Part shown: piece by piece, positions 6,422-64,000 of the stretch
Numbering within the stretch: the stretch's first letter is position 1
Layout of the letters: every line of letters starts with the position of its first letter
Source of the DNA: Actinosynnema sp. ALI-1.44
Lineage (GTDB): Bacteria > Actinomycetota > Actinomycetes > Mycobacteriales > Pseudonocardiaceae
Assembly: GCF_001984155.1 (NCBI RefSeq)
Contig: NZ_MTQO01000049.1
Coordinates: 124,001 to 188,000 of the forward strand
Length of the DNA stretch: 64,000 nucleotides
Direction: 5' to 3'
Program-made: the position numbers and the translations under genes
Notes under the pieces: generated by a model
What the model saw: the letters and a program-made list of their open reading frames with translations, nothing else
Database searches by the model: none
What the model was told of the DNA's origin: nothing

Positions 6422-6507
6422 CCAAGACAATCGGCCGTTGTGGCTGCCGGGTGGGTGGTCTATACCTAATTGGATCGCCGCCGTGGGAATCACCTTCGGG
6501 AGGGCAT

Positions 6508-48171: not shown

Positions 48172-49334
48172 GCCGGGACCTCGGCCAGCGCGTCGAGAGC
48201 ACTCAGCCGGGAGAGCGCCTTGTCCCGGTCGGCCTGGAGGATGTCGGCCGCCGCCGACGCCATGAGGCGCCCGGTCGCTCGGATGTCCATGCGGCTGGCC
48301 TCGCTGATGGCGTCGAGCCACTCGGCGGGTACGACGGCGGACCCGCCCAGGCCCGCGCAGATCGCGCCCGCCATGACGGCGATCGAGTCGGCATCCCGAC
48401 CGTAGTTGACCGCCGCCAGGACCGCCCCCCGAAAGTCGCCCCGGTGACCGAGCAGCAGTCCGAGCGCGGCGGGCAGCTCCTCGATGGACTTTGTCCGCGA
48501 CGGCCGCCGGGCATCGAGCGACATCTCCCGGTAGTGCGGCCCCACCGAGTCGAACGGCGCGACCGTCTCCCGGACGAGGCGCGCGAGCGCCCGCTCGTCG
48601 TCGTCGGTACGCGGCGCCGTGGACCATCCCTCAAGAGCGTCGACGACCGCCCGGATCGCCGCGGCGGTTCCGTCATGTGCGACGTCGAGGGCCGCCGCGA
48701 CCACGTCGTCGAGACCGGCACCGGGGGCGACCGCCGCGGCGACCATCGCGGCGAAGACCCCCGCCGCCTCACGCCCGTAGCTCGACTGGTGAGCTCCGGT
48801 GAGATCGATCGCCTCGGCGTAGGCACCGCGCGGGTCCCCGGCGTTGGCGATCCCCACCGGAGCGACGTACATCGCCGCCCCGCAGTTGACGACGTTGCCG
48901 ACACCGGCCTCGCGCGGGTCGACGTGTCCATAGTGGAGGCGCGCGACGATCCACTTCTCCGCGAGGAAGACCCGCTGCAACAGCAACGCGGTCGACTCCA
49001 GTTCGGGGACCCACCGCGGCTCACCGATCATGAGCGGCACCACGTCCTCGGCCATCGCGTACGCGTCGAGGTGCGCGCGGCGTTTCGCGTACACCTCGAC
49101 CAGCGCACACGTCATGAGGGTGTCGTCGGTGACATGCCCGTCACCCTTGTGGTACGGCGCGATGGGGCGTGCGTCCCGCCAGTTCGGGTACCACGGCCCG
49201 ACGATGCCGGTCACCCGGCCGCCGTGCCGCTCCTCGATCTGCTCGGGCGTCCAGCCCTCGGTCGCGCCGCCGAGCGCGTCCCCAACGGCCGCTCCTGTGA
49301 TCACAGCCACCGCTCGGTCTTCCAGCCAGGTCAC
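48168..49334 (-). CDS. ADP-ribosylglycohydrolase-family enzyme 1
   Basis: 388 residues from GTG 49334 (GGGGAGCGGAG just upstream; GTG 49364 is an alternative). AVITGAAVGDALGGATEGWT, GDGHVTDDTLMTCALVEVYA (first metal motif), NVVNCGAAMYVAPVGIANAG and AAVNYGRDADSIAVMAGAIC (second metal motif, normally GGDTDT). It is a divergent paralogue of the next gene. The pair may act on two linkages or form a heteromer. Confidence 0.9.
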   Translation of the reverse strand: MTWLEDRAVAVITGAAVGDALGGATEGWTPEQIEERHGGRVTGIVGPWYPNWRDARPIAPYHKGDGHVTDDTLMTCALVEVYAKRRAHLDAYAMAEDVVPLMIGEPRWVPELESTALLLQRVFLAEKWIVARLHYGHVDPREAGVGNVVNCGAAMYVAPVGIANAGDPRGAYAEAIDLTGAHQSSYGREAAGVFAAMVAAAVAPGAGLDDVVAAALDVAHDGTAAAIRAVVDALEGWSTAPRTDDDERALARLVRETVAPFDSVGPHYREMSLDARRPSRTKSIEELPAALGLLLGHRGDFRGAVLAAVNYGRDADSIAVMAGAICAGLGGSAVVPAEWLDAISEASRMDIRATGRLMASAAADILQADRDKALSRLSALDALAEVPA

Positions 49335-49375
49335 CGGCTCCGCTCCCCTTGTCAGATGCTTGGTCACAACGGCAA

Positions 49376-50650
49376 CTACTTCGAGATGTTCCGCCAGCCG
49401 TCCTGCAGTGCGCGGGCGAGACCGTCGGCGTCGAGCTCCTTCGCGAGGAACTTCTGGTACGCCGGGGTCGCCACGGTGTCCTTCCACTGCGCGTACTTGC
49501 CAGCGAACAGGTACGGCGCGGAGGTGAGGAACTTGCCGGAGGCGAGGATGACGTTCCAGCCGTTCTTCGTGCCCAGCTTGGCCGTCAGGGCGTCCCGCGC
49601 GGACGTGGTCGGCGGGATCAGGGCGTCGGCCTCGTTGAGCGCGGCGAGGTTCTGCGTGTTGGTGACGAAGTCGATGAACTCGGCCGCCTGCTTGACGTGC
49701 TCGGAGTCCTTGTTCACCGACAGGGTCTGCGGGTTCGCGGCCTGGGCGGGCCCTGCCGACCCGGCAAGCGGGGGCAGCACGACCCAGTCGAAGCCCGCGG
49801 GGGCGTCCTTGGCGATGTTGACCGCCTGGAAGGAACCCTGGACGGTCATCGCCACCTGACCGGCGTAGAACGGCGCGAGCGCCTTGGTGCCCGCCTGGGT
49901 CAGGGTGACCGGGAGGATCGACTTGTCCTGAGTGGACATCGTGTCGACGAGCTTGGGCAGCGCCATCTCACCTGGTCCGACGGCGATCTTCGCGTCCTTG
50001 CCCGCACCCTGGAAGTACGTCCCGCCGAAGCCGGGAGCCAGCGCCACGAACGCCGCCGTCGGGCTCTTGAGTCCCCATCCGAGGCCGTGGACACCGTCCT
50101 TGGTGGTCGCCTTGGCGATCTCCCGCAACTGGTCCCAGGTCATCGTCTCCCCGGTGGGAATCGTGACACCGGCCTTCTGCAGCAGCGAACGGTTCGCGAA
50201 GACCACATAGGACTGGATCTCGGTCGGGAGGCCGACCACCTTGCCGTCGACGGTCACCGAGTCGAGGATCCCCTTGGGGATGTCGGCACGCTTCTGCTCC
50301 GACACGTAGGGGGTCAGGTCGGCCAGGTAGCCGTCCGTCGCGAACGGCACGACCCCGGCCGCCTCGTAGTGGATGATGTCGGGCGCCGTGTTGGCGTTGA
50401 ACTGGGTGATGAGCTTGTCGTATACCCCGTCCCAGCCCGCCTGCACGACCTTGACCCGCACGTCGGGGTGGGTCTTGTTCCACTCGTCGACGATCTTCTT
50501 CGTCGCCTCGATGGCGGCGGGCTGGTCGGACAGGGACTGGAAGGTCAGGCTTACCGGGCCGCCCGAATCACCGCTGCCACTGCCACAGGCGGTCGCCAGC
50601 AGGCTGGTGATCGAAAGGAGCGCGGCGGCCACCACGCGTCGAGACTTCAT
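49376..50650 (-). CDS. Sugar ABC transporter substrate-binding lipoprotein
   Basis: 424 residues. Lipoprotein signal RRVVAAALLSITSLLATACG (lipobox ATAC, Cys22). Type I extracellular binding-protein features: IVDEWNKTHPDVRVKVVQAG, DKLITQFNANTAPDIIHYEA, SFQAVNIAKDAPAGFDWVVL, NPQTLSVNKDSEHVKQAAEF. Tethered to the outer face of the membrane, it would deliver ligand to the two permeases encoded upstream. The ligand is probably a glycoside or nucleoside-like compound given the enzymes that follow. Confidence 0.94.
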   Translation of the reverse strand: MKSRRVVAAALLSITSLLATACGSGSGDSGGPVSLTFQSLSDQPAAIEATKKIVDEWNKTHPDVRVKVVQAGWDGVYDKLITQFNANTAPDIIHYEAAGVVPFATDGYLADLTPYVSEQKRADIPKGILDSVTVDGKVVGLPTEIQSYVVFANRSLLQKAGVTIPTGETMTWDQLREIAKATTKDGVHGLGWGLKSPTAAFVALAPGFGGTYFQGAGKDAKIAVGPGEMALPKLVDTMSTQDKSILPVTLTQAGTKALAPFYAGQVAMTVQGSFQAVNIAKDAPAGFDWVVLPPLAGSAGPAQAANPQTLSVNKDSEHVKQAAEFIDFVTNTQNLAALNEADALIPPTTSARDALTAKLGTKNGWNVILASGKFLTSAPYLFAGKYAQWKDTVATPAYQKFLAKELDADGLARALQDGWRNISK

Positions 50651-50676
50651 TGGTCGACCTCTCGTGTCGGACGGGT

Positions 50677-51504
50677 TCATCCCTTCACCGCGCCGGCCAT
50701 GAGCCCACCGGTGAGCCTGCGCCGAAGGAGGGTGAAGAAGGCGATGCTGGGAATGGCGGCGAGCACGGCACCCGCGGCGAGCGGACCGAGCGCCACCTTG
50801 CCCTCCCCGCCGATGAACATTTTCAGGGTGATGGGCAACGTGTAGTTGTCCGGCGACTGCAACAGCACGAGCGCGAAGAAGAACTCGTTCCACGACGACA
50901 CGAAGCTGAACATCGCCGTCGCGACGATGCCGGGCGTCAGCAACGGGAACACGATCGTGCGCAGCACGGTGAACCTGCTCGCGCCGTCGATGGCCCCGGC
51001 CTCTTCGAGCTCGACGGGGATAGCGGAGACATATCCCTGCAGCATCCACAGCGCGAACGGCAGCATGTACGTGACGTGCACCAGCGTGAGCCCGACCAGG
51101 CTGTCGGCCAGCCCGATCGTCCGCAGAATAAGGAACAGCGGCAAAATGACGAGCACCACCGGGAAAACCTGGCTCACCAGGATCCAGCCGACCCCGGCCG
51201 CCCGCACCCTGCCCCGCAGCCGGGCGAGCACATAGGACGCGGGCAGTGCGATCACGATCACCAAAGCGGTGGACACGAGTGCCACGACAAGGCTGTTCCA
51301 CGCGGAATGGAGAATCCCCTGCCGCGAAAGGGCCTCGGTGTAGTTCTCCCAGTGCCACTCGTTCGGCACCAGGCTCACGTCGAGGGAGTTCAGTTCCCTT
51401 GAGGACTTCACCGACGCCGAGATCAGCCACAGCAACGGGAAGCCGAGGAACACCAGGTACAGCGCCAGCGCCAGGTACTGTGCGGGACGCGCGAGGAAAC
51501 GCAT
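50677..51504 (-). CDS. Sugar ABC transporter permease (MalG type)
   Basis: 275 residues with six membrane spans and the EAA loop PVELEEAGAIDGASRFTVLR, typical of the MalG partner of carbohydrate importers. Spaced three bases after the MalF-type gene. No ATPase gene is in the operon; a shared MsiK-type ATPase elsewhere would power it, as usual in actinobacteria. Confidence 0.95.
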   Translation of the reverse strand: MRFLARPAQYLALALYLVFLGFPLLWLISASVKSSRELNSLDVSLVPNEWHWENYTEALSRQGILHSAWNSLVVALVSTALVIVIALPASYVLARLRGRVRAAGVGWILVSQVFPVVLVILPLFLILRTIGLADSLVGLTLVHVTYMLPFALWMLQGYVSAIPVELEEAGAIDGASRFTVLRTIVFPLLTPGIVATAMFSFVSSWNEFFFALVLLQSPDNYTLPITLKMFIGGEGKVALGPLAAGAVLAAIPSIAFFTLLRRRLTGGLMAGAVKG

Positions 51505-51507
51505 GGC

Positions 51508-52461
51508 TCAGCCCTTCCTCTCGACGCGGTCGTGGCGGAACTGCGACCGCAGGTACAGGGCGAGGAGGAACACGACGATGACCACCAGCACGACTCCCAT
51601 CGCCGCCGCGTAGCCGATGTTGCGGTTCTTGAACGCCTCGAGGTAGATGAACAGCACCGGGACCATGGTCCGGCCGCCCGGCCCGCCCTCGGTGAGGACA
51701 TAGACCAGCGAGAACGAGTTGAAGTTCCAGATGAAGTTCAGCGACGTGATCGACGTGACGATCGGCCGGAGGCTGGGCCAGGTCACGGCGGTGAACCGGC
51801 GCCACGGCCCCGCGCCGTCCATCGACGCCGCCTCGTGCAGTTCGGCCGGGATCTGCTGCAGGCCGGCCAGCAGTGTGACGGTCGTCTGCGGCATCCCGAC
51901 CCACACCCCGACGACGATCACCGCGGGCAGCGCGGCGGAGAAGTCGCCGAGCCAGTTGGTGTCGCCGGGCAGGCCGAGGCTGCCGAGCACGGCGTTGAGC
52001 GGGCCGCCGTTGGCGGAGTAGATCATCTGCCACATGATCGCCACGACCACGGGTGGCATCGCCCACGGGATGAGGGCGAGCACCCGTGTCAGGCCCTGCA
52101 GGCGCAGACCGGAGTTGAGCAGGAGCGCGAGGCCCATCGACGCGGCGAGCTGCAGCACCGTGACGCCGACCGTCCAGATCAGACCGATCCGCAGCGAGTC
52201 CCAGAACAGGGCGTTGTCGATCAGGTTCCCGAAGTTGTCCAGCCCGACGAAGTCGTAGTCCGGATTGCGCACCAGCCGGGCGTCGGTGAACGCGAGCGCC
52301 AGGGCGATGACCAGCGGTGCGACGCTGAGCACGAGGATGGGGATCAGCGACGGCATCACCAGGGCGATCGCCTCGCGTCGCCGGGCGCGTACCGCCGTTC
52401 CCCGGCGACGACGCGGGGCAGGCCGGGACGCCTGGGGCTTCTCGACCAGTGTCGGCGTCAT
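51508..52461 (-). CDS. Sugar ABC transporter permease (MalF type)
   Basis: 317 residues. A basic cytoplasmic N-terminus (PRRRRGTAVRARRREAIALV), six spans and the EAA loop PAELHEAASMDGAGPWRRFT. Its ATG overlaps the LacI stop (ATGA 52458-52461), so regulator and transporter are coupled. Confidence 0.95.
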   Translation of the reverse strand: MTPTLVEKPQASRPAPRRRRGTAVRARRREAIALVMPSLIPILVLSVAPLVIALALAFTDARLVRNPDYDFVGLDNFGNLIDNALFWDSLRIGLIWTVGVTVLQLAASMGLALLLNSGLRLQGLTRVLALIPWAMPPVVVAIMWQMIYSANGGPLNAVLGSLGLPGDTNWLGDFSAALPAVIVVGVWVGMPQTTVTLLAGLQQIPAELHEAASMDGAGPWRRFTAVTWPSLRPIVTSITSLNFIWNFNSFSLVYVLTEGGPGGRTMVPVLFIYLEAFKNRNIGYAAAMGVVLVVIVVFLLALYLRSQFRHDRVERKG

Positions 52462-53483
52462 CGCTCACTCCGGTCCGATGCGGTGAACTCACTGGATTCA
52501 CGCACGATCAGGGCGGGGCCGACGGCTACCTGCTGTGCCTGCTGCTCCGGATCCTCGGCCAGCCGGAGCATGAGCTGGGCGGCGGCGCGTCCACGCTCGG
52601 TCGACCCGAGGGACACGCTCGTCAGGCTCGGGCAGAACACCCGCCCGATCTCGGTGTCGTCCATCCCGGTCACGGCGAGGTCGTCCGGCACGGCCAGCCC
52701 GAGTTCCCGCGCGGCATGGATCGCTCCGATGGCGAGCAGGTCGTTGGCGGCCACAACCGCGTCGAGCCCCTCACGCGCGAGCAGCCTGCGCGCCGCCACC
52801 AGGCCGGCCGCCACCGTGAAGTCCTCGGCGACCACCGCTTCGGAACCCTCGGGACACGCCCCGGCCAGTACCGCCGCGTCGAACCCACGCTGGCGGGCCT
52901 CGCCGGGGGTGGTGTCGAGCGGACCGTTGAGGAAGCCGATGCGGCGTCGACCGGTCTCGTGCAGATGGCGAACCGCCGCGCCGATACCGCCCGCGGAGTC
53001 GGTGGAGACCGAGCTGATGCCGTGATCGTCCAGGGCACGGCCGATCACGACGACCGGCACGGGTGCCTGCTGGATCTCGCGGATCAGCCTGTCGTCGGTT
53101 CGCAGCGGGCTGATGACCATGCCGTCGACAAAGCCGCTGTTCAGGCTGCGCACCAGGTCGGCGGTCGAGGCGGTGGTGTCGCCGGTCGTCATGACGACGA
53201 CCCGGTAGCCGTGCGGGGCGAGCACCCCGTGGATCGCCCGCATCATCTCGACGTAGACCGGGTTGCCGATGTCGGCCACCGCGAACGCGACCTGGAAGGT
53301 CTTCTTCATCCGTAACGACCGCCCGACCGCGTCGGGCCGGTAACCGAGTTCGGCTGCGGCGGCGCGGACCCGCTCGACCATCGCCTTGCTCGCCCCGGCC
53401 CCGTGCAGTGCCCGGGAGGTCGACGCCAGTGACACCCCGGCGCGCTCGGCCACCTGCGAAAGCGTCGCCCGTGTCGACGTCAT
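52458..53483 (-). CDS. LacI-family repressor, first gene of the catabolic operon
   Basis: 341 residues from ATG 53483 (MTSTRATLSQVAERAGVSLA). HTH and hinge helix: VSLASTSRALHGAGASKAMV, LGYRPDAVGRSLRMKKTFQV; periplasmic-binding-protein-like core (VAFAVADIGNPVYVEMMRAI, VDGMVISPLRTDDRLIREIQ, VTGMDDTEIGRVFCPSLTSV). It should bind the inverted operators at 53525-53576 and repress its own ten-gene operon until a sugar-like inducer arrives. Confidence 0.95.
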   Translation of the reverse strand: MTSTRATLSQVAERAGVSLASTSRALHGAGASKAMVERVRAAAAELGYRPDAVGRSLRMKKTFQVAFAVADIGNPVYVEMMRAIHGVLAPHGYRVVVMTTGDTTASTADLVRSLNSGFVDGMVISPLRTDDRLIREIQQAPVPVVVIGRALDDHGISSVSTDSAGGIGAAVRHLHETGRRRIGFLNGPLDTTPGEARQRGFDAAVLAGACPEGSEAVVAEDFTVAAGLVAARRLLAREGLDAVVAANDLLAIGAIHAARELGLAVPDDLAVTGMDDTEIGRVFCPSLTSVSLGSTERGRAAAQLMLRLAEDPEQQAQQVAVGPALIVRESSEFTASDRSER

Positions 53484-53524
53484 CGTCACACTCCGCATCG
53501 TCCTGACCCGACCCTGGTACCACC

Positions 53525-53576
53525 GTTGGAATCGTTTCCAGTTCTCCGCCGTGCAGCGACTGGAAACGATTCCAAC
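53525..53576. promoter_or_regulatory. Two inverted LacI-type operators
   Basis: GTTGGAATCGTTTCCAGT (53525-53542) and its exact reverse complement ACTGGAAACGATTCCAAC (53559-53576), 34 bp centre to centre (about three helical turns). Each is itself a near-palindrome of the TGGAA-ncgn-TTCCA LacI type. They lie 42-93 bases upstream of lacI, covering the expected promoter. Confidence 0.85.
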
Positions 53577-53721
53577 TGATGGTGGCGTGGATCGTGTCAC
53601 CTGACGATCAGAGTGTCAACACCCCAGGTGCGACGACTCCTCTCGCGCAAGTGCTCCGCCCTTCTTCCCCGCCGAAGCAGAGCCAGCAACAGAACGCGCT
53701 GCAGAACATCGGCCGTCAGGG

Positions 53722-54218
53722 ATGCCGACCCCTTGCCCGCTCCCCTGTTGCGTGGTCAGAGACCAGCCCACCGATCTGCAGGTGCGGATCGGCAGCCTGT
53801 CGTCAACCGAGGGCGGCGCCCTGAGCACGGTCGAACAGATCATCGTTCACCCGGGATACCCGACAGCACCGAACAAGCACGACATCGCGGTGCTCCGGCT
53901 CACCACACCCGTCGACGGGCAGCCGGTGAAACTGGCCACCGAACGCCCCGGCGTCAACTCCGGCCCGGCTCATCGGCTGGGGCTGCACCAGCCCGGCGGC
54001 ATGGTGCAGCGCTCCCCCAGTGCTGCAGAAATCGACACCACCGTGCAAAGGCGGAGGACTGCGACACCGGCGGCGGCCGGGTGGATCCGGCCCTCGAGGT
54101 CTGCACTGGGAACCCGCAGAACAAGTCCGGCGTACACAAAGGTGACTCTGGTGGCCCCGCACACCGATCTCGCCTTGCACCGCGACGGGGTCCGGGACGT
54201 CACCGGCTGCCGGTCTGA
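53722..54218 (+). pseudogene. Trypsin-like serine protease relic
   Basis: DLQVRIGSLSSTEGGALSTV, EQIIVHPGYPTAPNKHDIAV and LRLTTPVDG carry the catalytic-Asp region in one frame. After frameshifts another frame gives CDTGGGRVDPALEVCTGNPQ, NKSGVHKGDSGGPA with the active-site Ser motif GDSGGP, then a stop at 54218. The signal peptide, the AAHC His region and the segment after GDSGGP are gone. Confidence 0.75.
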
Positions 54219-54282
54219 TCCGCAAATCCGGGGTGGGCAGGCCACGCGGCCTGTCCACCCCGTCGCGGGCTCGTACGAGGCG

Positions 54283-57114
54283 TCACGAGTCGGCCAGCTT
54301 CTGCCGGATACGTGCGACGTCGGCGATCCGATACTGGGCCTGGTACAAGCTGAGCGCCCGCTGCCAGGAAGCGCGCGCTTCGGCTTGCTGGTCAAGGGCG
54401 ACGTGAACATCACCGAGTTTGTCCCTGGTGTCGGCTTCCTGGTAGGCGTTGCCGACCTGCGTGAACAGCTCAAGTGCGCGATGGTAGTAGTCCAGAGCAT
54501 CGGCGTGCAGGTCGGTGCGACTGGCGATGAAACCCAGACTGTCCAGTGTGGATGCTTCGCCGTCGCTGTCGGGATTACCGCGATAAAGGGCCAGGGACTT
54601 CTCACAATTGGTACGCGCGTCCGCGTAGTAGCCCAGCCGGGCTTGGAACCAGCCCAGCACGTTGAGCGCTTCGGCGTACCACACTGGGAAGTCAAGTCCC
54701 TCGAAGAGTTCGACGGCTTGGGTGGCGTGGGTCAGTGCCTGCTGATCGTCACCCCGCCGTTCCCAAGTGCAGGCGAGAGCACGGTGTGTGCCGGCCAGGA
54801 TGTAGATGTCCTTGGTTTGCTCGGCAAGGGTGAGAGCCTGTCGTAGATGGTCGAAGGCGTCGGCATGGCGTCGTGCTCGGGTGAAGGCATAGCCGAGTTG
54901 CCAACAGGCCAGTGCGCGGGTGTTGGGATCGCCCAACTGCCCGGCCGCCGCGAGTCCAGTCTGCCAAGTGCCGATGTGGTCGTTGAAGTGTCCGCGCCGT
55001 CTCTGGAAGTTGGTTATCGTCCAGGCCAGCTGCCACACCGACGGAAGCCAGCCCTGCTGGACAGCGAGCTGTTGGGTGGCCTGGATGCATATGTGTTCGG
55101 TGTCGAACCAGTCCAGCGCCTCGGCGGCGTTCCGGAGCGGGCGGGGAACGGCACCGGGGGCAGGGTGGTCGAGTGCGATCGGCCGACCGTGCGGGTTCAA
55201 CAGGCTTTCGCCTGCGTGGGCGGTGTGCAGGTAGAAGTCGATGAATCGACGCAACGCCTCTTGACGAGCATCCGTTGTCAGATCATGCGTGGCACGCTCG
55301 GCTGCGTACAGGCGGACGAGGTCATGCATGCGGTAGCGATCCGGCATGTGCTGTTGCACCAAGTGCGCGGCTTCCAGTTCCCGCAGCACGATCCGTGCTC
55401 GAGCGGCCGGTAGCGCGGTGAGCGAAGCGACGGCATGCAGGCCGACATCCGGACCCTGAACCAGGCCAAGCAGAGCGAACACCCGGGCCGTGTCGATGTC
55501 CAGGACACGATAGGACCACGAGATCACAGCGCGCAGGTCCGCGGTCAACTCACCGGCGTCCAATCCGTCCAACCGGGTCGCGGCGTCCTGGAGTTCCTCG
55601 GCCAGGGCCGCGAGGGCGAAGTCGGGTCGCGCCGCTATCCGGGCAGCGACGATGCTGATGGCAAGCGGCAGACCGGCGCACCGGTCCAACAGCGTGTTCA
55701 CGGACGAGGGTTCGGCGGCAAGACGGTCCGGGCCGAGATGCCGGACGAGGAGTTCTCTTGCCTCGGTGTCGCTGAGCACGTCCAGGTCAAGGATCTGGGC
55801 CCCGTGCGTGGCGACCAGGCCCGCGAGGTGACGGCGGCTCGTGATCAGGACCGTGCAGGTGCGGCTGCCCGGCAGCAGTGGCGTGACCTGGGCTACGTCG
55901 CGGGCGTTGTCCAGCACGACCAGCAACTGCTTCCCGGCCGCCAAGCTGCGGTACAACGCGGTCTGGGCGTCCAGGTCGATCGGAATGGCGGCTGGCGAAA
56001 CACCAAGGGCGGTAAGGAAGCCGCGAACCGCCACCGCCGGTGGCATCGGCTCCCCCGATGAGTCGAAGCCGCGCAGGTTCACGTACAACTGCCCACCGGG
56101 GAACAGGTCGACGTTCTGGTGCGCCCAATGCAGTGCCAGCCAAGTCTTGCCGATCCCACCGGTTCCACCGATCGCCGTGATCACGACCGCGATGCCAGAG
56201 TCGGCTGGTTCGTCCACCGCATCGGTGAGGGCAGTGAGCTCATCGCGGCGGCCGGTGAACAACCGTGGTGCCGCCGGGAGTTGGCGTGGCGGTCCGGCGA
56301 CGCCCGCGTCCTGGGTGGTCGCGCGTGTCCCGGAGGGTCGGGAGAGTGCCGGATCGCCGACCAGGATTTGCTGGTACAGACGGTGGAGTGCCGGGCAGGG
56401 GTCGACGCCGAGGGTGTCGGTCAACGTCTCGCGGAGATCGTGGAACGTCTGCAAGGCGTCGGCCTGGCGGCCGGACCGGTACAGCGCGAGCATCAGCAAC
56501 TCGCGCAGCCGTTCCCGGACGGGAAACTGGAGGACCAGTCCAGCCAAGTCGGCCACGGTCTCGGTCTCGTAGCCGCGATCGAGATTGATCATCGCACGCA
56601 GTTCCACGGCATCAAGGTGACGTTCTTGCAGTCGCCGCCGCTCGGCCTCGATCAGCGGGCCCTCCAGTCCACCGAACGGTTCTCCACGCCACATGGCCAA
56701 CGCCGTGTCGACGTCCTCCGCCGCGGAAACCAGCTCACCGTCCCGATAGTGACCGCGACCAGCGGCCAGATGCTGCTCGAACGCCGACGTGTCCAGTTGG
56801 GCTGGATCGCCGCGCAGCAGATAACCGGCATCAGTCGATGCCAGCACGACGCCTGAGGACTCGGCCGCCTGCTCGGGTAACAATGCGCGACGAAGCCGGC
56901 TGATGTTGGTGTGCACCGTGTTGCGGGCATGCTGTGGATGCCGCTCGCCCCACACCCTGTCGACGATCTTGTCGGCCGGCACCGGACGGTTGAGTTCCAG
57001 CAACAACACTGCCAGTACGGCCTGTTGCTTCGGCCAGCCAAGATCGATCTCTTGCCCGTCGCGCCACGCCTTCAGCGGACCGAGCACCGAATACCGTATC
57101 TCTCCCTGCGCCAC
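54283..57114 (-). CDS. SARP/AfsR-like regulator with NB-ARC and TPR domains
   Basis: 943 residues from GTG 57114 (VAQGEIRYSVLGPLKAWRDG), the usual opening; ATG 57174 would add 20 unconserved residues. Winged helix 1-100, BTAD ~105-255 (ending DTLGVDPCPALHRLYQQILV), NB-ARC with P-loop GGTGGIGKT at 315-323, QLLVVLDNARDVAQ (Walker B) and LPLAISIVAARIA, winged-helix-like segment, then TPRs (LNVLGWFQARLGYYADART, TLDSLGFIASRTDLHADALD). It is the nearest regulator to the cyclodipeptide synthase genes 360 bases away on the same strand and is a good candidate activator for them. Confidence 0.93.
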   Translation of the reverse strand: MAQGEIRYSVLGPLKAWRDGQEIDLGWPKQQAVLAVLLLELNRPVPADKIVDRVWGERHPQHARNTVHTNISRLRRALLPEQAAESSGVVLASTDAGYLLRGDPAQLDTSAFEQHLAAGRGHYRDGELVSAAEDVDTALAMWRGEPFGGLEGPLIEAERRRLQERHLDAVELRAMINLDRGYETETVADLAGLVLQFPVRERLRELLMLALYRSGRQADALQTFHDLRETLTDTLGVDPCPALHRLYQQILVGDPALSRPSGTRATTQDAGVAGPPRQLPAAPRLFTGRRDELTALTDAVDEPADSGIAVVITAIGGTGGIGKTWLALHWAHQNVDLFPGGQLYVNLRGFDSSGEPMPPAVAVRGFLTALGVSPAAIPIDLDAQTALYRSLAAGKQLLVVLDNARDVAQVTPLLPGSRTCTVLITSRRHLAGLVATHGAQILDLDVLSDTEARELLVRHLGPDRLAAEPSSVNTLLDRCAGLPLAISIVAARIAARPDFALAALAEELQDAATRLDGLDAGELTADLRAVISWSYRVLDIDTARVFALLGLVQGPDVGLHAVASLTALPAARARIVLRELEAAHLVQQHMPDRYRMHDLVRLYAAERATHDLTTDARQEALRRFIDFYLHTAHAGESLLNPHGRPIALDHPAPGAVPRPLRNAAEALDWFDTEHICIQATQQLAVQQGWLPSVWQLAWTITNFQRRRGHFNDHIGTWQTGLAAAGQLGDPNTRALACWQLGYAFTRARRHADAFDHLRQALTLAEQTKDIYILAGTHRALACTWERRGDDQQALTHATQAVELFEGLDFPVWYAEALNVLGWFQARLGYYADARTNCEKSLALYRGNPDSDGEASTLDSLGFIASRTDLHADALDYYHRALELFTQVGNAYQEADTRDKLGDVHVALDQQAEARASWQRALSLYQAQYRIADVARIRQKLADS

Positions 57115-57241
57115 GGATACCCCCGGGTTCGCGCCTCCCACACCCAACATAGAACGTAGGACAAGCGCGGGCATCAGTTTTCGGAGCAGGAAGAGGTATT
57201 TGTGCCGACTTGATCGGGGCGGCGTCTTGGGATGGCGTCAC

Positions 57242-57284
57242 GTGCGCTTCGGGGGGACACCTCTGGAGTCCCCCCGAAGCGCAC
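57242..57284. terminator. Strong 17-bp stem-loop terminator
   Basis: GTGCGCTTCGGGGGGAC (57242-57258) and its exact reverse complement (57268-57284) around a 9-base loop. It lies between the end of the cyclodipeptide synthase gene (57532) and the start of the SARP gene, so it should end the minus-strand CDPS transcript and insulate the regulator. The rest of 57115-57531 holds no gene I can support. Confidence 0.88.
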
Positions 57285-57531
57285 AACTATTCGGCCTCAC
57301 GGAGCCGCCCCTCCCCGTGACGCCGAACGCCCCCTCGGTGCCAGGAAAGGTGGATCATTGCGCTTCTGCGGGGAGTGCTTGTCGGGTCGGCTGATCGGTG
57401 GCGGCTGCCGTTGGCTTCGGTGTGGGTACCAGAATGCACCGACGGCGTGTCACGCCCCTTTCACGAACCCTTCAGAAGCCTGGTGCCGACCGGCCCACCG
57501 CATCGACGTGGTGGGATGGGGCACCCAGGAG

Positions 57532-58293
57532 TCAGCTGTCCGGGGACGTGGCCTCGGGGTCAGCCACGGACGACTTGGCCGGATAAGGCAGGGTCAGCAC
57601 GAGGTATCCCTGGTTGTCGGCGGGGGCGACAGGAAGCTGCCCAGTCCATAGCTTGTCAATGAACTCGTTCGTCCGGTGATAGCAGAACACTGACGAACGC
57701 AGACCGAGTATGTGCGGCGTGTCCAGCAAAAGCGGTAGCTCGGCCAAGAAATAGTGCACGGCGAAAGAAACACGCTCAGCAAACGGGCGCCGCCCCTGGA
57801 GATTGCGGGTCCGCACGTAATCGGCGGCGATGCCGGAAGCCGCGACTCGAAAATCCTCCATGGCATTGTACGACTCATACACATTTCCGAGAATTTCCAC
57901 GTACTCACGATTGTCACACAGGTCCGCCCATTGCAGGATATAATTGCCGTTGTCGGTCGCACCGGCCTCGGCGAGCGCGCGGTTGGCCCTGTTGATCAGC
58001 CTGCGCTGCTGCTGATACCCCAACTTCGCCGCCTCTGTCGGGGTATGGCCGATGGCCTGCAGGTTCCAGGTGAACGGCTCGGCCAGGATCATGAAGTGGA
58101 ATCTTTCGAACTCCGTCGCGGCTATCTGGGCCAGCTGGCCAATCCTGCCCGTCGAGAAGTACCCACTTCCTGGACTCAGTCCGATCAACGCATGCTCCCG
58201 CCGCTCGTACACAGCGCGACAGTTGGCGCTCAGCGGAGTGGCGGTAAACGCGGCCGTGCCCAGCTCGTTGTTGCCGGTCACTGTAGGTCTCAC
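57532..58293 (-). CDS. tRNA-dependent cyclodipeptide synthase
   Basis: 253 residues from GTG 58293 (GTG 58281 possible). Matches the AlbC family throughout: REHALIGLSPGSGYFSTGRI, EFERFHFMILAEPFTWNLQA, HYFLAELPLLLDTPHILGLR, SSVFCYHRTNEFIDKLWTGQ and GYLVL near the end. With a constant offset of three from AlbC numbering, Ser40 is the nucleophile (AlbC Ser37), Tyr181 and Glu185 match Tyr178/Glu182, and Tyr205-His206 match Tyr202-His203. Position AlbC Asn40 is Ser43 here, so the NYH signature reads SYH. The enzyme uses two aminoacyl-tRNAs to make a cyclic dipeptide. Amino-acid choice cannot be read reliably. Confidence 0.94.
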   Translation of the reverse strand: MRPTVTGNNELGTAAFTATPLSANCRAVYERREHALIGLSPGSGYFSTGRIGQLAQIAATEFERFHFMILAEPFTWNLQAIGHTPTEAAKLGYQQQRRLINRANRALAEAGATDNGNYILQWADLCDNREYVEILGNVYESYNAMEDFRVAASGIAADYVRTRNLQGRRPFAERVSFAVHYFLAELPLLLDTPHILGLRSSVFCYHRTNEFIDKLWTGQLPVAPADNQGYLVLTLPYPAKSSVADPEATSPDS

Positions 58294-58304
58294 CGTCCCA
58301 AAGA

Positions 58305-58320
58305 TGATCGCACGTGATCA
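58305..58320. promoter_or_regulatory. Palindrome upstream of the cyclodipeptide synthase gene
   Basis: TGATC (58305-58309) and GATCA (58316-58320), 12 bases before the GTG start. Imperfect in the centre. A weak operator candidate. Confidence 0.3.
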
Positions 58321-58444
58321 TTTACTGAAATCATGCGGGCAACAGTTACCTTTGCGCACTATATCGACGGCTGTGTAGTTCGTCCGTATCTTCACCCATA
58401 CGTTGGATGTTCGGGCATTGCTGGCGGAGTTTGGTGACCGCGGG

Positions 58445-59557
58445 TCACAGCCTTGACCGCAGCAACGCGCCAAGCCGTTCGCCCGCCAGCGAAAGTCGCT
58501 CCTCGTTGTAGAAGCTGAAGGACACCCGTAGATGGCTGGTGAACTCGTCCCGGCGGGAGAAGAGCGGGCCGGGGCGAAAGCCGACGCCATAGGCAGCCGC
58601 TTGGGTCGACAATGTCATGATGTCGATGCGCGATGGCAGTTCCAGCCAGATGTAGTAACCACCTTGCGGCGTCGTGAAACGGACTTCGGCCGGTAGGACA
58701 CCCCGCAGCACGTCGACAAGGTGCAATCGTCGCGCTCGGTAGATCTCCCAGAGGTCGCCAAGGAACCGGTCTTGAAACCCCAGATCGATCAGGCTTTCGA
58801 GGATCGCCGCCATCAAGGGGGACGCACCGCCGCCGCTGTGGAGTACACCGGCGTCGCGCAGCCTGGCAACATGGTGCGGCGCTGCCTCGATCCACCCAAG
58901 GCGGATGCCTGGGCCGAGGATCTTCGAGAACGAACCGAGCGACAGCACACGCTCACCGTTCACAGTTCGCAGAGGCGGCGGCGTCGCGTCCCGTTCTCCG
59001 GTCAGTTGATAAACCTCGTCAGCGACGACAAGGAAATCATGCTCGACCGCGAGTTCCATGAGTCGACGGCGCCGCTGCACGGACAGTGTCACGCCCGTCG
59101 GGTTGTGAAACACCGGAATGGTGTACACCAGCCTGGGAGCCTCGACGGCAAGCATTCGTTCGAGGTCGTCCACGTCGAGTCCGTGCTCGTCCACTCGCAC
59201 ACTGACCAGCCGCACCGGTCGGTCGCGGAAGATGTCCAGTGCGAACATGTAGGTCGGGTCTTCGACGAAGACCGCGTCACCTGGCCGGCACAGTCGAGAC
59301 AGGACGAGGTCAAGAGCGTGCGAGGCGCCCGCGGTGATCATCAGGTGGTCGGCGTGAACCGGCACCCGGCAGCACCGCGTCAGGAACTCCGCGAGCATGG
59401 CCCGGAACGAGGCGCTGCCCTCTTCCGGGCCGTACCGCAAAGGTGCCGTGTCGGCGTTGGACAACCGATGTGCTGCCGCCTGCCTCAACTGGCCCAACGG
59501 GAGCGCGGCCGGATCAGGCTCGCCAATGCCCAGATCGATGACGTCATGGTCCAGCAC
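58445..59557 (-). CDS. PLP-dependent aminotransferase (class I/II)
   Basis: 370 residues from GTG 59557, chosen because GGAGGAG lies six bases upstream; TTG 59614 would add 19 residues. DLGIGEPDPAALPLGQLRQ, RYGPEEGSASFRAMLAEFLT, ITAGASHALDLVLSRLCRPG, VYTIPVFHNPTGVTLSVQRR, FLVVADEVYQLTG, and the Schiff-base Lys212 in SLGSFSKILGPGIRLGW. It resembles MocR-linked and 2-aminoadipate/valine-type aminotransferases. It sits 151 bases upstream of the cyclodipeptide synthase on the same strand, so it may supply or modify the amino acid, or act on the product. Confidence 0.9.
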   Translation of the reverse strand: MLDHDVIDLGIGEPDPAALPLGQLRQAAAHRLSNADTAPLRYGPEEGSASFRAMLAEFLTRCCRVPVHADHLMITAGASHALDLVLSRLCRPGDAVFVEDPTYMFALDIFRDRPVRLVSVRVDEHGLDVDDLERMLAVEAPRLVYTIPVFHNPTGVTLSVQRRRRLMELAVEHDFLVVADEVYQLTGERDATPPPLRTVNGERVLSLGSFSKILGPGIRLGWIEAAPHHVARLRDAGVLHSGGGASPLMAAILESLIDLGFQDRFLGDLWEIYRARRLHLVDVLRGVLPAEVRFTTPQGGYYIWLELPSRIDIMTLSTQAAAYGVGFRPGPLFSRRDEFTSHLRVSFSFYNEERLSLAGERLGALLRSRL

Positions 59558-59782
59558 CGTGTTCTCCTCCGCCAGCTCGATCGATCGTCCTTCGGCAGCC
59601 GTGCCACCGATCAAGCCAGCAAGCAGACAGATTCGGGTCCATCAAACCCTGCCCTGGACATCAAGTCGAGATCAGATATCGATTCAGTCCGGCGCCACCC
59701 GTCCGGTGAGGTGACACAGACCTGCCCATGCGCGCATACTCGGTCCTGCTCGACGCCCTGACGACACCGAGGAATGGGGCCA

Positions 59783-60430
59783 ATGAGTGATCTCTCGGCC
59801 TTTCAACATCCACGTTTCGCCCGGATGTACGAACGGATCAGTGCCGAATCCGAGCGGCGCGGCACCGCGAAGCACAGGGATCGGGCGCTTGCCGGGTTGT
59901 CCGGCCGGGTGGTCGAGATCGGCGCGGGCAACGGCATGAACTTCAGCCACTATCCGGACACCGTACGCGAAGTCGTGGCCGTAGAGCCGGAGGACCGGTT
60001 GCGTGCCCTCGCCGAGCAAGCGGCCGAACGTGCGCCGGTGTCTGTCAGGGTGGTTGCAGGACACGCGGACGCGGTACCTGCCGAAGACGCGAGCTTCGAC
60101 GCCGCTGTGGTTTCGCTCGTACTCTGCTCGGTGCCCGATGTCGCACGGGCGCTCGCGGAGGTTCGTCGCGTACTCCGATCAGAGGGCGATCTCCGCTTTT
60201 TCGAGCACGTCCGCTCCGGCAAACCATGGCTCAGTCTCATGCAACGGGCCCTTTCCCCGCTCTGGTCACGAATCGGCGGTGGCTGCCGCCTCGACCGAGA
60301 CATCGCCACGGCCATCCAGACGGCGGGCTTCCAGATCGAACTGCTTGATCGGTTCTCCTATTCGCCGCTGCGGTTCTTCCCCAGACAGCAACACATCCTC
60401 GGACGAGCCCGAACACCCTCCAGGGACTGA
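59783..60430 (+). CDS. Class I SAM-dependent methyltransferase
   Basis: 215 residues from the second ATG (59783), better spaced from GAGGAATGGGG than ATG 59774. SAM-binding GRVVEIGAGNGMNFSHYPDT, the acidic VVAVEPEDRLRALAEQAAER, and DAAVVSLVLCSVPDVARALA with EVRRVLRSEGDLRFFEHVRS. Methyltransferase 11/UbiE type. It is divergent from the aminotransferase gene and shares its promoter region, so it may tailor the cyclodipeptide. Confidence 0.9.
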   Translation: MSDLSAFQHPRFARMYERISAESERRGTAKHRDRALAGLSGRVVEIGAGNGMNFSHYPDTVREVVAVEPEDRLRALAEQAAERAPVSVRVVAGHADAVPAEDASFDAAVVSLVLCSVPDVARALAEVRRVLRSEGDLRFFEHVRSGKPWLSLMQRALSPLWSRIGGGCRLDRDIATAIQTAGFQIELLDRFSYSPLRFFPRQQHILGRARTPSRD

Positions 60431-60537
60431 TGCACATCGGACAGCCCACGGGCCTGTGGCTGTACGCAGAGCCACGGTTGTTCGCCAGCACGACCGGCAA
60501 ACCTGCGAGAGCGGCCACTGCGTCGAGCAGCGTTGAG

Positions 60538-61074
60538 CTAGGCGGTCTTCCTCAGGGGTGTCGCTGGGCGCGTCTGCGGCCGGTCGTGGGGCCCACTGAG
60601 TGAAGCTCGCTGGCTGCTCGGCGCTGGTCCGGGCTTGGGCTGCTGCGTCGGCTGTCGAGGTTTTCGGCGGGTAGAGGTATTCGACCTCTGGATGTTCCCT
60701 CGGGCTATCCAGGTAGCACCCCTGGATACGGCGTAGGCGACCGCCGACGCGCGCCGGTCCCCTGCCGGGAACGGTGTCATGTCCCGTACCGCACCGGGAA
60801 TAGCGTCTTCGGCGTCCGGCCGCTGGGTGGCCAGCAGCAGTTTTCCTTTGCTGGCGCGTATCTGACGGGAGATCTGTTGCAGGATCGGGTCGAGTTCGTT
60901 CTTGCCCAGCGTGGCGCGGATCCCCTGCACCTCGTCCAACACGACCAGGTAGCGCGGGAAGTCAGGTTTCCCGGTGTTGCCGCGCTCGTACTCGGCGTCC
61001 TCGTCGTACCGCTGACGCATCATCGCCGAGACACGGGGCAACCACTCGGACCATTCCTCCGGATGGCGCGCCAC
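60538..61074 (-). pseudogene. TraB/FtsK-like translocase relic
   Basis: The readable part is RYLVVLDEVQGIRATLGKNE, DPILQQISRQIRASKGKLLL, ATQRPDAEDAIPGAVRDM, the Walker B/Arg-finger region of an FtsK/SpoIIIE-type DNA pump as in actinomycete integrative elements. The P-loop part upstream and the GxGRA... core downstream are missing. The tail (RKPRQPTQQPKPGPAPSS) is low-complexity. Remnant of a mobile element. Confidence 0.78.
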
Positions 61075-61150
61075 GCGTCCCCGCCATGTCGGCCACGGGA
61101 CGGCATGGGATACGTTCTGCGCCTATCCCTGTTGATCTCAAGGAGTTCCG

Positions 61151-61759
61151 ATGCGACACAAGAGCATTGTTTCGGCGGCGATCCCGCGGCGGCTCGAATC
61201 GGCCTGCCTGGCTGTCGTGGTGCCTGCGATGGCGTTCGGATTGGTCGCGTGCAGCTCGAGCGTGGCGGGAACGGGCACGGCCGCACCCAGCGGTGGCGCC
61301 AGTCAAACCGCGACTACGCCAAGTGTCACAAGTAACTCCAGCAGCGCCAACGCTTCGGCGGACAGCCCGGCTGCCGCGGTCGAGTCCTGGGTCACTCAGA
61401 TTCTGCAGAAGCGTTACACGGAGGCATGTCTGGCGAGTGCTCCCGTGATGGCTGCGGGTCAGGATGCCGAGACTGTGTGCAACGGCCCCCAAGCGAAGAA
61501 GACCCTGGAGTCGCTCCACGAAGCGTGGGCGAAGCCCGGCGTGAAGCTGCCGCCGCAGGCGCAGGTCAAGGTGTCCGACGTGGTACCCCATGGTGATACC
61601 GCCACGGTGGCGGACACTGCTGTCAGCGTTGACGGCCGGACGTTGCACGAGCTCGCGCTCATCGGCGCGACCGGCAACGTCGGATCGTTCAGTGTCACCT
61701 TGGAAGTGAAGAAGAACAACGGTGCCTGGCACATCGGCGACCTGCAGATCAAGTTCTGA
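61151..61759 (+). CDS. Secreted lipoprotein, unknown function
   Basis: 202 residues from ATG 61151 (AAGGAG five bases upstream). Signal LESACLAVVVPAMAFGLVAC with lipobox LVAC (Cys34), a Ser/Thr/Ala linker (~36-70), then a small domain AAAVESWVTQILQKRYTEAC, SLHEAWAKPGVKLPPQAQVK, GSFSVTLEVKKNNGAWHIGD. The pattern resembles NTF2-like or DUF4878-type domains in secreted actinobacterial lipoproteins. Outer face of the membrane. Confidence 0.82.
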   Translation: MRHKSIVSAAIPRRLESACLAVVVPAMAFGLVACSSSVAGTGTAAPSGGASQTATTPSVTSNSSSANASADSPAAAVESWVTQILQKRYTEACLASAPVMAAGQDAETVCNGPQAKKTLESLHEAWAKPGVKLPPQAQVKVSDVVPHGDTATVADTAVSVDGRTLHELALIGATGNVGSFSVTLEVKKNNGAWHIGDLQIKF

Positions 61760-61789
61760 CCTGCGTCGAGTTCTGTACCGCTCGAGCGG

Positions 61790-62104
61790 TCATCGCTGTA
61801 GGCCAAGCAGCCTATCGGTGGGTAGCGAGTAGGAGCCGGTCCTGGCACAGCGGCTGCAGTTCGCTGGGTGGGGAACCTTGCCGACGATCTTGGGCTCGAA
61901 GCTGCTGGTGCGGTCACGTGGCACGGTGGTCTCGACCGGCCCGACATCGGTCAACACGGTCTTGGACCGGGTGCCGTTACGGGAGTTGCCGGTGTTGCGA
62001 CCGGCCGGGTCGTGCTTGTCATAGCCGAGGTGGTCGGTCATCTCCCGTCCAACGCGGACTCCAGCAGCCGCTTGGTCAGCTGTTGCAACACACGTCAGTC
62101 CCAA
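61790..62104 (-). pseudogene. IS256-family transposase, N-terminal relic
   Basis: REMTDHLGYDKHDPAGRNTG, NSRNGTRSKTVLTDVGPVET, VPRDRTSSFEPKIVGK matches the early part of IS256 transposases; then the frame is lost (HPANCSRC...). Only ~75 recognisable residues remain. It touches the 3' end of the AraC gene. Confidence 0.82.
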
Positions 62105-62976
62105 CCGGGAACCGCGCCGTTGTGCCGGTAACTGCTCGGCGGCAGGCCGAACTCGCGGCGGAACGCGCGGCTGAAGTGAAACTGGTCGACGTAGCCGACG
62201 GTGCCGGCGACCGCGGCGACGGACATTCCCGTGCCGGTCAGCAGCCGAGCCGCGCGGTGCAGGCGGCGGGAGCGCACCTCCTGCATGGGGCTGCGGCCGG
62301 TGGCCCGCGCGTAGAGGTGACTGAAGCGCGACGGTGACAGCCCGGCGATGGCGGCAAGCGAGTTCAAGGTGTGCGGGGCCTCCGGTGTCTCGGCGATGAA
62401 CTGCTGCACGCGGGCGATGCGCGGGTCAGGGCCCGGCGGTGCGGCGGGAGCACCGGTGAGGGCGGCCAGGCGCACGATTTCCTCGAGCGCGCACATGGCG
62501 AGGGCCTGCTGCTCGGGACGGGCGGCGAAGGCCGGGAGGTGGACCGGCGACGACGGGATGTGATCACCGGTGAGCCGGGCGTAACGGCGGAGCCGGTCGA
62601 AGGCGGCGTCGATGGCCTCCGCAGCGCCACTCGCCGCCGGTGTCAGATGGCGACTCGTTCCAAGCCAGTTTCCCTGTGGTGCTCGGAAATGTGCCCACAG
62701 CAGCGACCATTCCCCGGCGTCGGGGGCGACTCCGTAGGTGTGCCGCACGCCGGGTTCGATCAGCACGAGCTGCCCCGCGCTGGTTGTCAGGGCCGTGTTC
62801 CCGTGGTGCACGGCGCCGCGTCCCCGCGTTGTCCACATGAGCAGCCAGCTCGGCGAGCCGGTCGGCCGAATCGCCTCGACGCGCTTGGTGAAGGTGCTTT
62901 CGCCGACGACGAGCAACCCGGCCGGAGGCGAGGGCGTCGCAGCAGGATCTGTCATCTCCCCGGCAGGTTCAGCCAT
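62095..62976 (-). CDS. AraC-family transcriptional regulator
   Basis: 293 residues from ATG 62976 (ATG 62955 possible). N-terminal cupin-type sensor (SWLLMWTTRGRGAVHHGNTA, GQLVLIEPGVRHTYGVAPDA, WSLLWAHFRAPQGN), then two HTH motifs (HTLNSLAAIAGLSPSRFSHL, SVAAVAGTVGYVDQFHFSRA, FRREFGLPPSSYR). The wording is close to AraC-like regulators of sugar or oxygenase genes. Divergent from the dioxygenase-family gene, which is the probable target. Confidence 0.93.
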   Translation of the reverse strand: MAEPAGEMTDPAATPSPPAGLLVVGESTFTKRVEAIRPTGSPSWLLMWTTRGRGAVHHGNTALTTSAGQLVLIEPGVRHTYGVAPDAGEWSLLWAHFRAPQGNWLGTSRHLTPAASGAAEAIDAAFDRLRRYARLTGDHIPSSPVHLPAFAARPEQQALAMCALEEIVRLAALTGAPAAPPGPDPRIARVQQFIAETPEAPHTLNSLAAIAGLSPSRFSHLYARATGRSPMQEVRSRRLHRAARLLTGTGMSVAAVAGTVGYVDQFHFSRAFRREFGLPPSSYRHNGAVPGWD

Positions 62977-63040
62977 GTCCGCGATGCCTCCGCCCTTTCT
63001 ACAGTTGGACCCGTCGAGACCCCCACGGTGGAGGCAGAAC

Positions 63041-63952
63041 ATGAAGCAGTTGATCGATTCCAGTGACATCGCCGACGACGTCGCGGCGCTGCGGGAGCGC
63101 ATGTCCGAGGACGGCTACCTCTACTTCCCCCGCCTGCTGCCCAGCGACTACGTCACCGGTGTTCGCGCCGACATCGCGGCCGTGCTCCACGACAGCAGGT
63201 GGCTGGCCCCCGGCACCGAGCCGCACGAGCTGCGGGCGTCCGACCGGGCGGTCGAGGAGGGCAAGTCCACCTTCTTCGGCATGTACTCCGCCGTGCAGGC
63301 GACGCAGTCCTTCCACGAGCTCAGCGAACGCCAGGAGCTGCGCGGCCTGGCTCAGCGGCTGCTCGGCGAGGAGGTCTTCTGCCACCCGATGCACATCGCC
63401 CGCGTCACGGCGCCGACGCCGCGGGCCACACCCACGCCCGCTCACCAGGACTACCGCCTCATCCAGGGCGCGGTCGACACCCTGACCATGTGGATCCCCC
63501 TCGCCGACTGTCCCTCCGACGCCGGCGGGCTCGAGGTCCTCGCCGGGTCGCACAAGCTCGGCGTGCTCGGTGTGTCCCGGGCGGAGGGCCCCGGTGGGGT
63601 CACCGCGCAGGTGGCGGGCAGCGGCGTGGACGACTGGCGCAGCACCCACTTCGGCCAGGGGGACGTGCTCATGTTCACCAGCCTTACCGTGCACGGGGCC
63701 CGCCCCAACCTCAGCGACCGGCTGCGGTTGTCGGCGGACATCCGGTGGCAAGCGAGGTCGGAACCGGCCGCCTTCATCGACGGCTACGAGCCGTTCCGGC
63801 CGCACTTCCACCCGGACGTGCCCGACTGGCCCACCCTGACCCGGGGCTGGACTTCGACGACCAGCATCGAGATCCCGGAGGGACTGACCTATGTCCGCAA
63901 GTTCGACTCGATGAGCGAACACGTGCCAACCCCTCCGTCCCGGTTCAGGTGA
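63041..63952 (+). CDS. Phytanoyl-CoA dioxygenase (PhyH) family oxygenase
   Basis: 303 residues from ATG 63041 with TGGAGG at ideal spacing. Non-haem iron signature: HQD in PTPAHQDYRLIQG, and the distal His in LTVHGARPNLSDRLRLSADI with the 2-oxoglutarate-binding Arg. Also CPSDAGGLEVLAGSHKLG and FGQGDVLMFTSL. Family members hydroxylate small molecules using Fe(II) and 2-oxoglutarate. Substrate unknown; regulated with the divergent AraC gene. It might serve a pathway continuing beyond the right edge. Confidence 0.9.
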   Translation: MKQLIDSSDIADDVAALRERMSEDGYLYFPRLLPSDYVTGVRADIAAVLHDSRWLAPGTEPHELRASDRAVEEGKSTFFGMYSAVQATQSFHELSERQELRGLAQRLLGEEVFCHPMHIARVTAPTPRATPTPAHQDYRLIQGAVDTLTMWIPLADCPSDAGGLEVLAGSHKLGVLGVSRAEGPGGVTAQVAGSGVDDWRSTHFGQGDVLMFTSLTVHGARPNLSDRLRLSADIRWQARSEPAAFIDGYEPFRPHFHPDVPDWPTLTRGWTSTTSIEIPEGLTYVRKFDSMSEHVPTPPSRFR

Positions 63953-64000
63953 GCGAGCGCGGTCAGTTTCCAGGCGCGGGCCGGACCCGGTCGAGCTTCG

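Follow-up and report, generated by a model that had tools for sequence, protein, structure and literature searches.

The window analysed here is a stretch of 64,000 nucleotides from Actinosynnema sp. ALI-1.44, and this study concerns a cyclodipeptide synthase (CDPS) encoded in it at positions 57532-58293 on the minus strand, by a gene with a GTG start and a length of 253 amino acids (aa). A first-pass annotation had claimed four genes at this locus; all of them are present where it had placed them, and their families were confirmed by Pfam. Reading along the minus strand, the gene for a stand-alone class I/II pyridoxal phosphate (PLP) aminotransferase (59614-58445, 389 aa from a TTG start) is followed, after a gap of 151 bp (58294-58444), by the CDPS gene (58293-57532) and, after another 357 bp containing a hairpin, by the gene for a large SARP/AfsR-type regulator of 963 aa (57174-54283). 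A gene for a class I S-adenosylmethionine-dependent methyltransferase of 218 aa (59774-60430) is divergent and lies on the plus strand. Taken together, we describe a genuine orphan CDPS variant in what is probably an acquired islet, next to a neighbour that is unusual and with which a partnership is unproven.

The cyclodipeptide synthase and its residue at position 40

The gene at 57532-58293 encodes a full-length, genuine CDPS, as had been claimed. The protein reaches 172.2 bits with the Pfam CDPS model (cut-off 27) and 194.6 bits with TIGR04539 (cut-off 45). An AlphaFold2 model with a pLDDT of 88.3 predicts the CDPS Rossmann fold, and the best match of this model in the PDB is 7azu, with a TM-score of 0.81 by query length. 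Equivalents of the AlbC residues Ser37, Tyr178, Glu182, Tyr202 and His203 are present; the roles of the catalytic residues, in AlbC numbering, follow passages of PMC5935735 and PMC7566563. The protein shares its fold, its length and these five residues with the CDPSs of the NYH subfamily (AlbC, Rv2275, YvmC and BtCDPS), to whose solved structures it is 22-28% identical by structural alignment. It differs from them in having a serine in place of Asn40 and in its first substrate pocket (P1), which reads LGMLWLLF with a leucine at position 67. It is thus a CDPS, but one without Asn40, a name-giving residue of the NYH subfamily.

Genome searches revealed no orthologue of either the CDPS or the aminotransferase, and for the CDPS two pattern scans across 84,980 species did not reveal one either. 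A CDPS is present in 89 of 390 genomes of the family (E <= 0.001). Leaving the query aside, the best of these matches share 36-40% identity across most of the protein, and one 52-residue fragment reaches 42%. At E 1e-38, two of 394 genomes of the class gave a match, its own genome counted, and CDPS proteins of congeners are at most 38% identical. A single-protein pattern scan of the species collection yielded no close relative, and an alignment-based scan of the same collection returned 69 loci, the best of which is 39% identical; both scans depend on short peptide pattern matches, so that recovery is bounded by the patterns. Likewise, there was no close relative among viral contigs in the single-protein scan and no match in a DNA search of phages. 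By these sequence comparisons the CDPS is an orphan: over its length, no CDPS found exceeds about 40% identity to it.

For a phylogeny, 174 reading frames that contain a CDPS domain were reduced by 50 identical or short sequences and by 22 at >= 93% identity, leaving 102 including the query. In the resulting tree, which contains no XYP reference, the window's CDPS has the longest end branch (1.26) and no supported sister. It stands as a lone branch with weak support (42/0), outside a supported group of 71 rows (98/90) that includes the metal-linked CDPSs described below. It is also the one sequence with a serine at AlbC position 40, where the other 101 in the tree have asparagine. Across all 174 frames, position 40 is Asn in 168, Ser in three (the query, fetched thrice) and Thr in one, and two do not cover the site. 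The lone Thr40 sequence, that of L048, belongs to a plasmid CDPS that is divided between two frames. Tyr202-His203 is retained in the window's CDPS.

With the pocket positions published in PMC5816076, the pockets of the enzyme read LGMLWLLF (P1) and IDYTRNE (P2). The mapping was checked on Streptomyces varsoviensis L085 (LGFPWFMF/LKAGQFE) and Nocardia concava L062 (CGHPWLLY/TDVHRIP), each of which equals a row of Table 2 in that source. Since the closest published P1 motifs are associated with Phe, Ile, Leu or Pro, we predict, with low confidence, a hydrophobic cyclodipeptide as product. A useful comparison by pocket motifs is CDPS 84 of Allokutzneria albata, for which PMC5816076 lists cFI, cLI and cMI and to which we assign, from its F/I label, the table row LGLPWFLF/IRVTRSP. 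The two enzymes are alike in their P1 motifs and also in P2 (IRVTRSP in CDPS 84, IDYTRNE in the window's enzyme), whereas position 67 is Pro in the former and Leu in the latter.

The same genome has two more CDPS genes (G000:C36:7045-7686 and G000:C46:544913-545569; loci L012 and L015). One of their products has the P1 motif LGLAWIGC, as in a published row labelled F/G; by that label we ascribe the row to the cyclo(Phe-Gly) enzyme of Kibdelosporangium aridum. The pocket of the other, CGFPGMFF/AWVRQVA, resembles the Cys-specific pocket described in a passage of PMC8658869.

The surrounding DNA and the neighbouring genes

Positions 46,000-64,000 were searched as DNA against eight genomes of the genus, its own and seven congeners, and matches were listed to about E 1e-14. 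Among these, the CDPS, the aminotransferase and the methyltransferase have no match in the seven congeners, and the stretch from 53501 to 60555 has no syntenic match in them. The left flank, with LacI and sugar ATP-binding cassette (ABC) genes, is homologous up to 53,487-53,500 (85-86% in two congeners), and synteny on the right, with AraC and PhyH, begins at 62,089 (95% in a third congener). Both flanks are therefore conserved, but in different congeners. The SARP gene matches many places at 64-81%, with the longest matches at 65-68%, as expected of paralogues. Several flanking pieces recur as well: 53,749-54,268 in its own genome (85-90%), 60,556-61,074 in one congener, and the whole or most of 61,081-61,819 in four congeners at 86-88%. 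The truly unmatched part is therefore about 54.3-60.5 kb. A short repeat (61,877-62,093), present in many copies across the genus, ends at the right synteny break; by our reading it resembles part of a transposase. The edges of the block also hold a trypsin-like fragment (26.9 bits) and a piece with no Pfam match that reads like an FtsK/TraB ATPase. Scans for island markers found no tRNA in the window and no RNA families in 46-64 kb. The SARP, CDPS, aminotransferase and methyltransferase genes have a GC content at third codon positions (GC3) of 0.73-0.77, compared with 0.83-0.94 in the genes for LacI, two ABC permeases, AraC and PhyH, and GC drops to 60% over the CDPS gene. We infer that the block is probably a strain-specific islet that was acquired. 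Farther to the left in the window, at 24969-25868 on the plus strand, lies a gene of the Beta-lactamase family (Pfam Beta-lactamase2, 119.4 bits).

The aminotransferase gene encodes a complete class I/II enzyme (Aminotran_1_2, 127.1 bits; cut-off 19.7) with the motif SFSK, which we take to be the PLP lysine region. Its open frame, in which a GTG lies about 20 codons downstream of the TTG start, is 398 aa long and thus leaves no room for a helix-turn-helix domain, and no DNA-binding domain is present. A model of the protein folded alone had a pLDDT of 40.1 and was discarded. Its best NCBIfam model is MppQ of enduracididine biosynthesis, at 252.2 bits and far under the equivalog cut-off of 540; two MocR-type models score 218.7 and 194.8 bits. 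The structure of MppQ, 8tn2, ranks fourth among solved relatives and is outranked by 1wst, 1x0m and 3aov. The best paralogue in its own genome is 35% identical. No close relative besides its own genome was found at E 1e-70 in 297 genomes or at E 1e-62 in 394, in searches with these strict limits that scored 4-6 candidates per genome of up to about 60.

The first-pass annotation had called an aminotransferase beside a CDPS unusual, and the comparison with other loci agrees: only one of 131 other CDPS loci has one within 6 kb (62.7 bits, on the opposite strand and 2.6 kb off). This count refers to a profile built from eight genes of one genome with a threshold of E 1e-8, which would miss other aminotransferase classes, and to loci of which some are near-duplicates or cut by contig ends. 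Farther than 6 kb, weak matches of 24-28 bits occur in three Photorhabdus loci. Its own genome, 11.7 Mb in 54 contigs, has 28 aminotransferase places of this kind, and by a rough estimate about 3-4 aminotransferases would be expected within 6 kb by chance across the 131 loci. There is therefore no enrichment that would link the two genes across the family, and the single adjacency is weak evidence. A second CDPS-aminotransferase pair was not found anywhere examined. None is described in the matching passages of PMC7570522, PMC4210621 and PMC11610984, and the word aminotransferase is absent from the main text of the CDPS family surveys PMC5816076 and PMC5767969. The gap between the two genes shows no more folding stability than shuffled sequence (z 0.29 for 149 of its 151 nt). 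Shortly before the CDPS start it contains the palindrome TGATCGCACGTGATCA (58305-58320), which matches nowhere else in the window, with 0.07 matches expected, and is a candidate operator.

The regulator matches BTAD (139.1 bits), Trans_reg_C, NB-ARC and TPR in Pfam and lies under the AfsR equivalog cut-off (610.7 versus 1430 bits). No convincing SARP-type direct repeats were seen before the genes. The strong terminator that had been proposed ahead of the SARP gene is a hairpin at 57242-57284, downstream of the CDPS stop codon, with 20-nt arms that are 95% complementary and a 3-nt loop. It is indeed very stable (-45.1 kcal/mol and z -6.06 for the surrounding 76-nt stretch), but it has no T-run and is not among the terminators of a consensus terminator scan.

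The idea that all four genes form one pathway is unsupported. Relatives of the methyltransferase (Methyltransf_11, 70.5 bits) occur at E 1e-30 in ten plasmid records and are up to 73-74% identical, and copper or other metal-resistance genes lie near the relative in six of the seven plasmid records inspected around the gene; three of these six are similar Streptomyces islands. At E 1e-20, relatives that are 34-42% identical are present in five of the seven congeners. The methyltransferase is probably an unrelated passenger. Against this, four of the 131 CDPS loci have a close methyltransferase relative (>200 bits) within 6 kb, namely the three similar Streptomyces islands just mentioned and L173, and at L173 none of the searched metal proteins was found. 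In L173 (genome G357), a distant CDPS (6031-7032) and a methyltransferase (9670-10470, 226 bits) are 2.6 kb apart. We hold the passenger reading less firmly on account of these four loci.

Interpretation of the locus

We propose, with a probability of roughly 55%, that the locus is an islet peculiar to this strain, probably acquired, whose divergent full-length CDPS makes a small diketopiperazine and has a Ser40/His203 pair in place of Asn40/His203. The islet would extend over about 53.5-60.5 kb, followed by mosaic pieces as far as 62.1 kb. The enzyme would take two aminoacyl-tRNAs, and the first aminoacyl group would most likely be loaded on the conserved serine. In the next step, the second aminoacyl group would be added and cyclisation via the conserved tyrosine would give a small, mostly hydrophobic diketopiperazine, of the Leu/Ile/Met/Phe type by P1, with the Ser40/His203 pair standing in for the usual one. 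The co-directional aminotransferase gene may share a transcript with the CDPS gene, and, as a guess, its product would most simply adjust the pool of hydrophobic or aromatic amino acids. The SARP may be a local activator.

Several points weigh against this proposal. In AlbC, the substitution N40A strongly impairs the enzyme, and N40 and H203 are argued to be a working pair (passages of PMC5935735); because of this, Ser40 may mean weak or no activity. The branch length of 1.26 could stem from relaxed constraint. No published row among those of the PMC5816076 table matches the pocket motif exactly, and one Kibdelosporangium aridum enzyme, CDPS 79, is listed in the same source without a product. 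The spacing of 151 bp between the aminotransferase and CDPS genes is wider than a tight operon gap. Low GC3 also occurs elsewhere in the window, with 0.69-0.89 in predicted genes at 26-41 kb, and the GC3 contrast is therefore support for a foreign origin, not proof of it.

The alternative that survives best, about one chance in three in our view, is that the genes are chance neighbours: the CDPS would act alone or with genes elsewhere, and the aminotransferase, methyltransferase and SARP would be unrelated genes gathered on an island. The lack of enrichment of aminotransferases near CDPSs, the metal genes beside the methyltransferase relatives on plasmids and the mosaic pieces flanking the block are all consistent with such a gathering. 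On the other hand, a joint origin of the CDPS and aminotransferase genes would fit their shared strand and GC3 (0.76 each) and the orphan status of both.

Somewhat less probable is that the CDPS is degenerate, with the Asn40/His203 pair broken, or has been recruited for something else, such as aminoacyl transfer from tRNA without cyclisation. The solitary Ser40 in the tree, the longest end branch and the role described for N40 in AlbC (PMC5935735) would fit this reading, as would the fact that the only other non-Asn sequence, the Thr variant in L048, is split over two frames. However, the window's CDPS has an uninterrupted reading frame and keeps its other catalytic residues, and its predicted fold is a confident CDPS fold.

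We consider it unlikely that the two co-directional genes form a two-enzyme pathway, in which an unusual amino acid provided by the aminotransferase is charged by a host aminoacyl-tRNA synthetase and used by the CDPS. Adjacency on a shared strand, the rarity of the pairing, the unusual pockets of the CDPS and the top score of the aminotransferase with MppQ would favour it. Nevertheless, that score is less than half of the model's cut-off with MocR-type models nearly as high, the pair was seen nowhere else, and no synthetase is among the neighbours identified by Pfam, although no search aimed at synthetases was made. The transaminated product suggested by the first-pass annotation is chemically unlikely, judging from diketopiperazine chemistry, because diketopiperazines of common residues, those with Lys excepted, lack a free amine or keto group. 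Least probable, though only slightly below the two-enzyme pathway, would be a new CDPS subtype that works with Ser40/His203 and receives, from an aminotransferase dedicated to it, a building block not used by other CDPSs.

Returning to the islet-borne diketopiperazine synthase that we favour, an active enzyme would demonstrate that Asn40/His203, the pair usual in the NYH subfamily, is replaceable. Specificity in the family is predicted from pocket residues, and the enzyme would probably extend this code by a new entry. If it is inactive, the CDPS would be one more remnant.

Cyclodipeptide synthases beside P-type ATPase genes

The 69 loci of the alignment-based scan gave 58 non-identical, full-length CDPS rows, in which a separate pattern was seen. 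Among rows with a Cys-like P1 (CG[FY]P..FF) together with Pro206, a P-type ATPase gene lies within 3 kb in 16 of 17, and a MerR gene is present too in 15. The corresponding numbers for the ATPase are one of nine rows with a Cys-like P1 lacking Pro206 and one of 32 for the remaining CDPSs. These frequencies are biased, because the scan alignment contained such CDPSs and the rows are mostly from Streptomyces. CPC is a motif of metal pumps; in the 16 rows the ATPase motif is CPC in 13 and SPC in two, and none was found in one. The ATPase-adjacent loci are L050, L052-L056, L058-L060, L064-L067, L072, L074 and L077, and also L076. In addition, the plasmid loci L047, L119 and L120 have a CDPS with a Cys-type pocket beside a P-type ATPase, and the same gene order is annotated in three Streptomyces plasmids.

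This arrangement suggests that CDPSs with a Cys-type pocket might contribute to metal resistance by making a dithiol of the cyclo(Cys-Cys) type. In the literature searched, no paper names both 'cyclodipeptide synthase' and 'P-type ATPase', and the sole co-mention of CDPS and 'copper resistance' concerns, by its title, another subject. If true, this would be a genetically encoded dithiol diketopiperazine, made with metal-efflux genes and used in metal handling, which would matter more than the window's CDPS; the metal-linked group may therefore be the better lead. The window's CDPS was considered as a member of this type and rejected, as it has another pocket and its tree position is outside that clade. 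None of eight metal query proteins matched in the window or within 40 kb on either side.

Further CDPSs of the broad group, at L024/L121, L042/L143/L144, L048 and L049, lie beside matches to the CopY/BlaI regulator and M56 peptidase of copper-type islands. In Kibdelosporangium philippinense (L014/L115), a truncated CDPS frame of 131 aa (open) is found beside a MerR-like gene and is perhaps a remnant of the metal-linked type.

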